Below, one piece after another: positions 5,943 to 20,867 of a stretch of 20,867 nucleotides of DNA. Source of the stretch: a virus; the IMG/VR virus record IMGVR_UViG_3300035228_000973, positions 1 through 20,867 of that record; one strand, 5' to 3'. Position numbers and translations under genes: made by a program. Position 1 is the stretch's first letter. The number at the start of each line of letters is the position of its first letter. The notes beneath the pieces are model-generated. The model saw only the letters and a list, made by a program, of their open reading frames with translations. It made no database searches and was not told the origin of the DNA.

Positions 5943-5971
5943 AGTATAACACAAAATGACAAAGGGGGCAA
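5943..5971 (-). promoter_or_regulatory. Promoter for the Sm-like / gp43 block, overlapping the hsp20 terminator
   Basis: -35 TTGCCC at 5971-5966 (4/6), 17-bp spacer, -10 TATACT at 5948-5943 (5/6). The -35 is made from the loop and 3' arm of the hsp20 terminator. Predicted start near 5936 gives a 16-nt leader carrying AAGGAA before the ATG at 5920. Confidence 0.65.
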
Positions 5972-5979
5972 CGCCCCCT
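5953..5979 (-). terminator. GC-rich intrinsic terminator after hsp20
   Basis: On the minus strand AGGGGGC (5979-5973), loop GTT, GCCCCCT (5969-5963), then TTGTCATTTT, an interrupted T-run. A perfect 7-bp stem 11 nt after the hsp20 stop. Confidence 0.82.
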
Positions 5980-14541: not shown

Positions 14542-14569
14542 AGTATACAATAAAAAAGGGGACCCGCAA
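14542..14569 (-). promoter_or_regulatory. Promoter for the VWA/CobS/clamp block, overlapping the terminator
   Basis: -10 TATACT at 14547-14542 (5/6). With a 16-bp spacer the -35 position is TTGCGG (14569-14564, 3/6), which is exactly the loop of the preceding terminator. Predicted start near 14535, giving a 15-nt leader to the ATG at 14520. It shares GTATACTAGT with the gp55 promoter. Confidence 0.6.
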
Positions 14570-14575
14570 GTCCCC
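14552..14575 (-). terminator. Intrinsic terminator after the 2OG oxygenase gene
   Basis: On the minus strand GGGGAC (14575-14570), loop TTGCGG, GTCCCC (14563-14558), then six T (14557-14552). It ends the gp55-gp47-gp46 block 12 nt after its last stop codon. Confidence 0.9.
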
Positions 14576-14586
14576 CTATGCCACTT

Positions 14587-18251: not shown

Positions 18252-18526
18252 AGTTTAACACCCATAGCAGCAGAAGTAACAAAGGAATAATCATCTAGTG
18301 TTCCATCTTGTAAACACTTAAGATGCCATCGTGTCATCTGAGCAACTCCATCTTCAGTAGCACCAGTAATAAAGTTAGCACCGAAGGGTTCTTTCAATAC
18401 ACTGGTATAAAGACCGAACATAGTTTTCTTGACATAGAAAGCATCATCAATCCAAACCTGATCCTCAGGAATAGTTTTTTCGATAGTAGGATTAGATCCT
18501 AGACTAGTTGCTAATGTAGATGTCAT
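18248..18526 (-). CDS. 92-aa protein of unknown function between gp55 and gp47
   Basis: Starts at the ATG at 18526 in an ATGA overlap with gp55 and ends in another with gp47. The N-terminal 20 or so residues are polar and flexible (MTSTLATSLGSNPTIEKTIP). The rest contains VWIDDAFYVKKTMFGLYTSV, then FGANFITGATEDGVAQMTRWHL and DDYSFVTSAAMGVKL, suggesting a small mixed alpha/beta fold. No family recognised. A gene of this size in this place is, from memory, usual in cyanomyoviruses. Coupling to gp55 and gp47 suggests a role in the late switch or recombination, but this is only from position. Confidence 0.82.
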   Translation of the reverse strand: MTSTLATSLGSNPTIEKTIPEDQVWIDDAFYVKKTMFGLYTSVLKEPFGANFITGATEDGVAQMTRWHLKCLQDGTLDDYSFVTSAAMGVKL

Positions 18527-19017
18527 CGGTTCATTCTTGTTTCAATGTTTTCTTTAATACTACCCATATCAGAATAAGAAGCATTCATGCCTGCCATGTC
18601 ACCTTCATACTTATCTGTATGCATAATCTCTTGGTGACCTGAACGTTCAAGGATCTTACCCTTGATCTCCAGTTGCTTCTTCTCCTTCTGTATGCGTCTC
18701 AGGAAAGCGTAGTAGATAATCTGGGTGAAGTATGCAAAAGGATTAGAACTCTTCTCTGGGTCGAAGTTATCGATGTATTGTAGGCAGTTCTCAATGCCGT
18801 CACAAATCATGTCCTCACGGAACATGTAGTTAACAAAGTTTGGTTTATATGACAAGTGTGTAGCAATTTTTAAAAAGCATTCACCCAAATAATTTGTGAC
18901 TCTTGGTCTTGGTTTCTCTTGTTCTTTTGCCAGGATGACTTTATTACGATACTCAGTAATAGCAGCAAGGAACTCTTTGTTATTTACATAGTACTCTTTG
19001 TTTTTGGTCCTTGTCAT
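18523..19017 (-). CDS. 55: Late-transcription sigma factor, T4 gp55-like
   Basis: Divergent small sigma factor that directs host RNA polymerase to late promoters and in T4 works with the gp45 clamp. It is 164 aa (T4 gp55 is 185). The N-terminal YYVNNKEFLAAITEYR matches the T4 opening YNYVNNKELLQAI. The core sigma region-2 block is MICDGIENCLQYIDNFDPEKS, then NPFAYFTQIIYYAFLRRIQKEKK, where T4 has [23 protein letters not shown]. A consensus promoter (TTGACA, 17 bp, TATACT) lies just upstream, so gp55 is made by the unmodified host polymerase before the late phase. The predicted leader is only about 17 nt, with AGGA at its 5' end. It heads the gp55-gp47-gp46 block. Confidence 0.95.
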   Translation of the reverse strand: MTRTKNKEYYVNNKEFLAAITEYRNKVILAKEQEKPRPRVTNYLGECFLKIATHLSYKPNFVNYMFREDMICDGIENCLQYIDNFDPEKSSNPFAYFTQIIYYAFLRRIQKEKKQLEIKGKILERSGHQEIMHTDKYEGDMAGMNASYSDMGSIKENIETRMNR

Positions 19018-19040: not shown

Positions 19041-19069
19041 AGTATACTTGATTGAAGACATTTTGTCAA
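19041..19069 (-). promoter_or_regulatory. Sigma70-type promoter for gp55
   Basis: Read on the minus strand: -35 TTGACA at 19069-19064 (6/6 match), a 17-bp spacer, and -10 TATACT at 19046-19041 (5/6). The predicted start near 19034 leaves a leader of about 17 nt before the gp55 ATG. This is the best leftward promoter in the window and would be read by the unmodified host polymerase. Confidence 0.85.
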
Positions 19070-19080
19070 CATGATCAAAG

Positions 19081-19095
19081 GGGCTTGACAAACCC
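19081..19095. promoter_or_regulatory. 15-bp near-palindrome overlapping the rightward -35 box
   Basis: GGGCTTGACAAACCC: seven-base arms around a central A, with one mismatched pair (C/A at 19084/19092). It covers the rightward -35 and lies 11 bp from the leftward -35. The symmetry suits a dimeric repressor site between divergent promoters, but it may be chance. Confidence 0.3.
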
Positions 19096-19113
19096 TCAGA
19101 AACTCAGTACAAT
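19085..19113 (+). promoter_or_regulatory. Sigma70-type promoter pointing right, opposite to all genes
   Basis: On the plus strand: -35 TTGACA at 19085-19090 (6/6), a 17-bp spacer, -10 TACAAT at 19108-19113 (5/6), with predicted start near 19120. It is back to back with the gp55 promoter; the two -35 boxes are 15 bp apart. No protein gene lies downstream on this strand, but an intrinsic terminator does (19157-19183). Confidence 0.75.
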
Positions 19114-19128
19114 AACTCTGTAAGGGTT
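19091..19128 (-). other. Imperfect 10-bp hairpin after the uvsW / Sm-like block
   Basis: Arms at 19091-19100 and 19117-19128 (AACCCT + CAGA pairing with TCTG + AGGGTT, with a 2-nt bulge). On the minus strand only TTT follows, so it is at best a weak terminator or a 3'-end protecting hairpin for the transcript from uvsW. Confidence 0.35.
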
Positions 19129-19183
19129 CAAAAGATAACTGTATCTATTAGCTTCTCTTGAATAGAGATTCAAGATTTTTTTT
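19120..19183 (+). ncRNA. Predicted small RNA of about 64 nt, antisense to the end of an Sm-like gene
   Basis: Bounded by the rightward promoter (start near 19120, plus or minus 2) and an intrinsic terminator ending at 19183. Inside are a short hairpin AGATA-ACTG-TATCT (19133-19146), a short single-stranded linker and the terminator stem CTTGAAT/ATTCAAG. The last 36 nt are antisense to the final codons of the gene at 19148-19552 and the rest to its 3' untranslated region. There is no open reading frame of note. Promoter, length and terminator together make a complete small-RNA gene; expression is not shown. Not recognised as a known RNA family. Confidence 0.55.
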
Positions 19184-19552
19184 GACTTCATCTACACTAC
19201 CCACATAACCATTGTTTTTTAGTTTATTGGGTTTCACATTAATTTCATCATGATCATCATCTTCATCTGTATCTTCTACATTACTAATATAAAAGTTCTT
19301 TATTCTTTCATCTAGTTCTGACATTGTAACTATTTGATTCATCTTAATAATAAAGATATCATCATAAGATGATCTAATCCATTCTTTTAAAATAAAACCA
19401 TCAACATTCTTTCCACGTTTATTTTTTTTATAGTTTTCAACAACCATAGGATTTTCTATTAGTAAAGAATCTTCATCAGGTAAATAACATACCTTTGCTA
19501 TGAGTTCTTCACCAGTAGATAATTTTATTGTTGAATAGAATTCTTCTTCCAT
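19148..19552 (-). CDS. Sm-like N-terminal domain protein, paralogue C
   Basis: A 134-aa protein of unknown function starting 1 nt after the uvsW stop. The N-terminal part has FYSTIKLSTGEELIAKV (about 5-21), then LLIENPMVVENYK and, after a KKNKRGK loop, DDIFIIKMNQIVTM. The K-L-x-x-G-E-E-L-I-A-K-V / ENP / I-V order matches the two small proteins upstream of gp43 and suggests an Sm/LSm-type small beta barrel. The C-terminal 45 residues are acidic (DTDEDDDHDE) then basic, probably flexible, and end SLFKRS. The last 36 nt of the gene are covered, on the other strand, by a predicted plus-strand small RNA and its terminator. Family by eye; an RNA-binding role is inference. Confidence 0.8.
   Translation of the reverse strand: MEEEFYSTIKLSTGEELIAKVCYLPDEDSLLIENPMVVENYKKNKRGKNVDGFILKEWIRSSYDDIFIIKMNQIVTMSELDERIKNFYISNVEDTDEDDDHDEINVKPNKLKNNGYVGSVDEVKKNLESLFKRS
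19157..19183 (+). terminator. Intrinsic terminator, plus strand
   Basis: Perfect 7-bp stem CTTGAAT (19157-19163) / ATTCAAG (19168-19174) with an AGAG loop, then one A and eight T (19176-19183). The stem lies inside the coding end of the minus-strand gene, where no terminator is needed for any plus-strand protein gene. Confidence 0.7.
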
Positions 19553-19553
19553 A

Positions 19554-20867
19554 TTATTTTCTTAGATCTATTTTTAGTTTTTCATATTTGAAATTCTCTT
19601 CTTGATAGATCTTCACTCTTTCGTATAGATGTCTTAAAGTGTAATTAGATCTTGTTTCGTTAGAGATGTCATCAGCAATATCATAAAGTGTTGCTATGGT
19701 TTTTCCTTCTCCCTTCCTTAAGACTCTACCAATTGATTGTAGATTACGAACTCTAGATTTAGAAGGTGATGCGAAGATAATATTATGCAAACGTTTAATG
19801 TTAATGCCTGTGGAGAAAGTTCCGTAAGAAGCAATAATCACTGCGTTGTTTTCTGTTTCAGCAATCTGACGTACTTCTTCTCTTGAGTCAACGTCAACTG
19901 AACCATGGACGAAGAATACTTTTCTATCGTCCGCTACCACATTATTTATCATCTCATATAATGGTTCACCATGCTTCTCGACATAGTTGAATAGAACCAA
20001 TGTATTGCCATCTATATCTTTAACTAGATTCTTGATGAGGTTGTTTCTTTTTTGACATGTAACGAGATACTCCATTTCTGCATGATAGTCCTCAAAGTAT
20101 TGATACTCATGCTTACACATAAGAATTTTGATACGTAAGTTAGAAAGATATCCTTTCTTGATTAGATCATCAGTTCTTGTAACCTTCTCACAGGCACCGA
20201 AGAGACCCTCCAACACCCACTTGTGAGTCTTGCTACCATCTAGTGTACCTGTGAACCCAAAGCGATACTTAGCGTTGTGTAGCTTGGTCATGATGCCTGT
20301 CAGACTCTTCGACTTAAATAGATGTGCTTCATCACCGATAACACACTCAATGTCATCGAAGTATCTTTTGGGAAACTTATAGATTGATTGCCAGGTAGAT
20401 ATGACAACTGGTTTATCAGTATTCTTATCTTTGCCTGAATAAATGGTGTGACAATAGTCGTCTGCATTCCATCCATAGTCTTTAAAATCTTTTACCATCT
20501 GTTCTACTAGAGATGTAGTAGGAACAATCAATAGAATCTTTTTCTTTGTTGCAACATAGTATCTAACGATACTGTAGATCATTAATGATTTGCCAGATCC
20601 TGTGGGGGATACAAATAATCCTCTGTTGTTTTTGAGTGCTTGATAAACTGTACTATATTGATAGTCTCTAGGTGCATACTTAGAGATCTTATCCATGAAA
20701 ACTTTTACTCCACCAGGAGATACGAAATCATTAGACTCCTGTGCTTCTCCATACCATTCATTTTCTTCATATTCAATGCTGTAACGTTTTTCTCCTGCCC
20801 ATTGTTTTAGGTGGTTTAACAACCCACCATAAAGTTCGCCTGTACCTGGAGAGTACAAACGAATCAT
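19554..20867 (-). CDS. uvsW: UvsW superfamily 2 helicase, 5' end cut by window edge
   Basis: DNA/RNA helicase that unwinds R-loops and branched DNA and moves T4 from origin to recombination-dependent replication. 437 residues are visible. Helicase motifs: PTGSGKS at 88-94 (I), DEAH at 179-182 (II), GFTGT (III), VHGSVDVDSRE, ASYGTFSTGINI (V) and QSIGRVLR (VI). A Met codon lies exactly at the window edge, but it is unlikely to be the start: MIRLYSPGTGELYGGL aligns with the T4 segment WDGRIRLLDYNRLLPFGL, which is about 50 residues into that protein. The real start is therefore to the right of this window. The next gene follows after one base. Confidence 0.95.
   Translation of the reverse strand: MIRLYSPGTGELYGGLLNHLKQWAGEKRYSIEYEENEWYGEAQESNDFVSPGGVKVFMDKISKYAPRDYQYSTVYQALKNNRGLFVSPTGSGKSLMIYSIVRYYVATKKKILLIVPTTSLVEQMVKDFKDYGWNADDYCHTIYSGKDKNTDKPVVISTWQSIYKFPKRYFDDIECVIGDEAHLFKSKSLTGIMTKLHNAKYRFGFTGTLDGSKTHKWVLEGLFGACEKVTRTDDLIKKGYLSNLRIKILMCKHEYQYFEDYHAEMEYLVTCQKRNNLIKNLVKDIDGNTLVLFNYVEKHGEPLYEMINNVVADDRKVFFVHGSVDVDSREEVRQIAETENNAVIIASYGTFSTGINIKRLHNIIFASPSKSRVRNLQSIGRVLRKGEGKTIATLYDIADDISNETRSNYTLRHLYERVKIYQEENFKYEKLKIDLRK

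Follow-up and report, generated by a model that had tools for sequence, protein, structure and literature searches.

A conserved antisense promoter back to back with the gp55 promoter at the uvsW-gp55 junction of T4-like cyanophages

Host-like sigma-70 promoters have been reported for T4-like cyanophages, and the marine T4-like phages are without MotA and AsiA. Transcript starts of Syn9 and an early-gene regulatory element were reportedly described by Doron et al. in 2016. In phage lambda, the PR and PRM promoters provide an example of a switch built from overlapping divergent promoters. A review has called the timing of early, middle, and late expression in marine T4-like phages unclear (PMC2984593). 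CfrI, an S-PM2 antisense RNA about 225 nt long and located at psbA and at a gene for a homing endonuclease, has been shown by experiment (PMC2984593, PMC5931967), while the T4 origins oriF and oriG combine a promoter with an A+T-rich unwinding element and form R-loops that are unwound by UvsW (PMC3016281). In the literature that we searched, which left aside Doron et al. 2016, we found nothing on antisense transcription at gene 55, and the terms for divergent promoters in cyanophages were mentioned just in passing.

Here we describe a locus in a cyanomyovirus window, by which we mean the whole analyzed stretch of 20,867 nucleotides (positions 1 to 20,867 of IMG/VR record IMGVR_UViG_3300035228_000973). 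At the junction between uvsW and the gene for gp55, the late transcription sigma factor, an antisense promoter and the gp55 promoter form an overlapping divergent pair, back to back, which we observed in its sequence, its geometry, and its conservation among relatives. That this pair, with its host-sigma-type antisense arm, acts as an overlapping divergent promoter switch is a reading to which we give an even chance. The antisense promoter shares the TTGACA-17-TATAAT-type boxes of the sigma-70 promoters of T4-like cyanophages, but it also keeps its spacer and a dyad at the start, and it faces against the genes. As with lambda PR/PRM, the two promoters should be too close for two polymerases and one of them carries a candidate operator; unlike in lambda, one arm is antisense, at the uvsW-gp55 junction, and the regulator there is putative. 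CfrI is likewise transcribed in antisense direction in a T4-like cyanophage and is believed to regulate the genes that it overlaps, but it is a product of about 225 nt established by experiment at the psbA locus, whereas the RNA at the uvsW-gp55 junction is predicted. The T4 origins oriF and oriG resemble the locus in having a promoter followed by A+T-rich DNA and, in T4, a functional link to uvsW (PMC3016281); they differ in that motA is absent from cyanomyoviruses (PMC2984593) and that no skew signal was seen at the element.

The promoter pair and its conservation

All likely genes of the window lie on the minus strand. They include the uvsW helicase gene, which reaches the window edge (19554-20867) and is annotated as uvsW at the equivalent place in relatives, a gene for a protein with an Sm-like domain (19148-19552; T4-GC 139; PF16243, E 4e-10; phrog_471), the gp55 gene (18523-19017; phrog_234, E 1.6e-67), and, beyond gp55, a DUF7468 gene and others. 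The Sm-like gene is annotated as 'methylamine utilization' in relatives, while its Pfam match is to an Sm-like domain. Two promoter-like sites lie back to back between the stop codon of the Sm-like gene and the start of gp55. The gp55 promoter, on the minus strand, has its -35 box TTGACA at 19064-19069 and, at a spacing of 17 bp, its -10 box TATACT at 19041-19046. The antisense promoter, on the plus strand, is divergent from gp55 and convergent with the Sm-like gene, and it consists of a -35 box TTGACA (19085-19090), a 17-bp spacer AACCCTCAGAAACTCAG (19091-19107), and a -10 box TACAAT (19108-19113) that was placed by motif scan and column frequencies across loci. It is followed by an imperfect dyad, AACTCTG-T-AAGGGTT (19114-19128), with its centre near the predicted start at about 19120. 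Elsewhere in the window, the minus strand holds a 12/12 sigma-70-type promoter, TTGACA-17-TATAAT, near the edge (389-417), as well as terminator-like G+C-rich hairpins followed by T-rich stretches at 5963-5979 and 14556-14577.

An earlier note, made from the window alone, had pointed out the plus-strand TTGACA and TACAAT boxes and held that no plus-strand protein gene could use them. Both points agree with the gene layout, and we found no plus-strand ORF of at least 40 aa starting between 19120 and 19690. The note missed the divergence from, and the overlap with, the gp55 promoter. Against a sigma-70-type consensus, the antisense promoter scores 11/12. The window contains 69 promoter-like sites of at least 9/12, compared to 69.9 in shuffles, which is no excess, so that the match in the window proves little by itself and conservation carries the weight.

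To assess conservation, we combined two viral-contig scans with the Sm-like and gp55 proteins and phage records, which yielded 169 sequences containing the two genes and, the window counted, 126 distinct Sm-like/gp55 junctions. Every one of these 126 loci has, at the junction, a plus-strand promoter of the form TTGACA-17-(-10) that scores 10-12 of 12, which bears out the host-sigma-type antisense promoter of the earlier note, although the loci are related and counts across them are not independent. The promoter forms part of a conserved block of about 45 bp, TTGACA-nAACCTCAGAAACTCAG-TAnAAT-AACTCTG-T-nAGGGTT; one strict pattern fits 108 of the 126 cores, and in the loci outside it visual inspection shows recognizable variants, among them GGATGACTCTGT and CAATTAACCTTGT. 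The 37-bp core has a pairwise identity of about 0.79-0.81, as against values down to 0.26-0.53 at the four-fold sites of gp55. Syn9 has the antisense promoter at the equivalent place, and P-SSM2 shares an exact 25-nt stretch of it at the junction. Two of the junction loci, L044 and L046, each contain a tandem duplication of the promoter block.

For the gp55 promoter, the best minus-strand match chosen within the stretch upstream of gp55 scores 9-12 of 12 in 126/126 loci. The gap between the two -35 boxes is 15 bp in the window (19070-19084), with a median of 6 bp in relatives, and it does not exceed 15 bp in 117 of the 126 loci. Judged by the usual footprint of RNA polymerase, promoters at this median spacing of 6 bp should leave no room for two polymerases together. 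Where the gp55 promoter is clear, which is so in 107 loci, the hexamers of both promoters are conserved alike, at an identity of about 0.92, whereas mean pairwise spacer identity is 0.63 for the antisense promoter and 0.32 for the gp55 promoter. This difference between the spacers suggests that an additional factor reads the antisense promoter.

The dyad over the start, AACTCTG-T-CAGGGTT and its variants, has arms that pair around the predicted start, and its AAC...GTT pattern occurs in 124 of the 126 loci (it was not found in L051 and L062). Versions differ by clade, with AACCTTGTAGAGGTT in one, AACTATGTCAGAGTT in another, and AACCGTGTAGCGGGTT in a third. Some of these clade-specific changes match across the arms and others do not, and the dyad is imperfect. 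We regard it as a candidate operator; it may be a protein site or incidental.

The stem-loop, the T-run, and further copies of the block

The earlier note had combined the antisense promoter with a perfect 7-bp hairpin and eight T into a small RNA of roughly 64 nt. The hairpin, TCTTGAA-TAGAGA-TTCAAGA (19156-19175, plus strand), and the T8 (19176-19183) are indeed present, within the Sm-like coding sequence, and a transcript from about 19120 to 19183 would have the proposed length. The distance from the start to the end of the hairpin, given as about 44 bp, is in fact 56 nt; 44 fits the interval from the end of the -10 box to the start of the stem. Shuffled sequence seldom contains a perfect 7-bp stem with a T-run (0.08 per window on average), and five cyanomyovirus genomes, 957 kb together, hold 72 such matches if those that overlap are included. 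With just 2 G-C pairs, the stem falls below what the terminator scanner requires, and the 64-nt RNA folds with no extra stability over shuffles (z -0.9).

Across 18 sequences, the T8 is confined to the window and to L011, its sister, where the stem has a mismatch; four of the seven pairs break among the 18, with no two-sided, compensating changes. Runs of at least seven T near the T8 position are found in 28 of the 126 loci. The stem corresponds to the LESLFK codons in the conserved C-terminal peptide VKKNLESLFKRS of the Sm-like protein and the T8 to two AAA lysine codons of the same gene, so that the peptide explains the stem, and the same peptide written with AAA lysine codons explains the T-run. 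This comes near to the refutation named in the earlier note, in that the T-run decays and the protein sequence explains the stem, but the promoter is retained. The terminator-like feature is lineage-specific. Over the 126 loci, we found no conserved RNA structure after the start (mean z -0.36), although L047, L054, and L151 have strong folds there, unlike the set as a whole, and Rfam 15 gave no match at gathering score. A complete small-RNA gene at 19085-19183 is not conserved, and these comparisons do not establish it. Terminator-like sites (score -6 or better) occur within 300 nt of the antisense promoter in 29% of loci, compared to 14% for shuffled sequence and 5-17% farther along. The loci are related and this evidence is weak; by this modest enrichment, short antisense RNAs whose ends shift are still plausible. 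In eight loci (L009, L114, L116, L118, L119, L122, L123, and L125), a stem ending in GAGGGT and followed by TTTTTC lies on the plus strand about 162 nt after the -10 box, a possible alternative antisense terminator.

The block also occurs away from the junction. By junction-profile scan, S-PM2, Syn1, and S-RSM4 have two copies each, one of them at the junction, and Syn9 and S-CAM1 have one, at the junction; a mismatch search gave a second, weaker site in Syn9, where there are only two close matches. Two copies are also present in most of the other phages searched. In Sf-CH11, S-PM2, S-RIM44, and S-H9-2, the second copy is found behind the base-plate lysozyme gene and, in sense orientation, ahead of small hypothetical ORFs, the first of which are phrog_1461 or phrog_507 (both of unknown function); in S-RSM4 and Syn9, small ORFs of the same strand surround it. 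Retrieval with a short motif returned 80 viral loci, 67 at the junction and 13 elsewhere, and ATG-initiated ORFs of 67-115 aa come next in six of the 12 checked among those 13. With its second copy in sense orientation before or among small ORFs, the block behaves like a promoter. In L236, L241, L253, and L264, sense ORFs that begin MK(P/T)(Q/S)SAK follow the start element at a distance of 29-35 nt. A general early-promoter motif was rejected, since there are just one or two copies per genome. Bacterial genomes gave 114 matches to the promoter pattern, mostly in Clostridia, and only three of these, L401 (a Synechococcus MAG), L408, and L466, have the AGGGTT arm after it, on which ground we also rejected a host origin of the block. 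These three contigs, filed as bacterial, are possibly phage sequence.

Weighing a divergent promoter switch against other roles

In the switch that we give an even chance, polymerase on the antisense promoter early in infection would keep polymerase off the gp55 promoter and would produce a short antisense RNA that runs into the uvsW/Sm-like mRNA at its 3' end. Binding of a factor at the start dyad, and perhaps at the conserved spacer, would then turn the antisense promoter off, which would end the interference and release gp55. The end of the antisense transcript would be variable, and in the lineage of the window it may be the stem and T8 at 19156-19183. It is possible, though clearly less probable, that the block is a factor-controlled promoter module peculiar to the T4-like phages of cyanobacteria, with its conserved spacer, its start dyad, and its one or two copies per genome, and that the antisense copy times the late switch by denying polymerase access to the gp55 promoter.

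The remaining explanations fall below these. We consider it rather unlikely that the product of the antisense promoter is a CfrI-like cis antisense RNA of variable length that tunes the uvsW/Sm-like mRNA, the divergent layout being a coincidence. The promoter does aim into the Sm-like gene in 126/126 loci, terminator-like sites are enriched within 300 nt, and CfrI of S-PM2 offers a precedent (PMC2984593), but such an RNA leaves unexplained both the conservation of the spacer and start dyad and the sense-oriented second copy. Somewhat more doubtful is a dedicated phage small RNA of about 64 nt that has a promoter and a terminator to itself and works in cis or in trans: its promoter is real, and its stem and T8 are rare in shuffles and well placed for a short transcript, but the T8 is confined to the window and L011, where the stem is broken, the stem lacks compensatory changes, the peptide and its lysine codons account for both features, and neither a conserved fold nor an Rfam match was found.

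Two further roles would concern the DNA itself. A transcription-primed origin of the T4 oriF type, in which the promoter would lead into an A+T-rich R-loop region next to uvsW, seems improbable. It would draw on the likeness to oriF and oriG in promoter, A+T-rich element, and UvsW (PMC3016281), the A+T content downstream of the antisense promoter is 68% compared to 63% for gp55, and a second copy would suit several origins. However, a GC-skew extreme was absent at the element in five genomes, where skew is confounded by the strand bias of genes, and the second copy is placed before genes, like an ordinary promoter. Least probable of all, and very unlikely in our estimation, is a conserved DNA site that serves some other function, such as recombination, packaging, or protein binding, in which the promoter hexamers would be secondary. 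A long conserved non-coding block with one or two copies per genome would agree with such a site, whereas TTGACA-17-TAnnnT boxes, fixed spacing, and sense copies close to genes are what a promoter predicts.

For the reading of phage genomes, this locus serves as a warning that an antisense promoter together with a T-run can be mistaken for a small-RNA gene where lysine codons make up the run of T. An RNA-binding role of the Sm-like protein would be interesting next to the antisense promoter. A deeply conserved promoter pair at the gene for the late sigma factor, together with a candidate operator, provides a concrete site at which the timing of gene expression in these phages may be tested.
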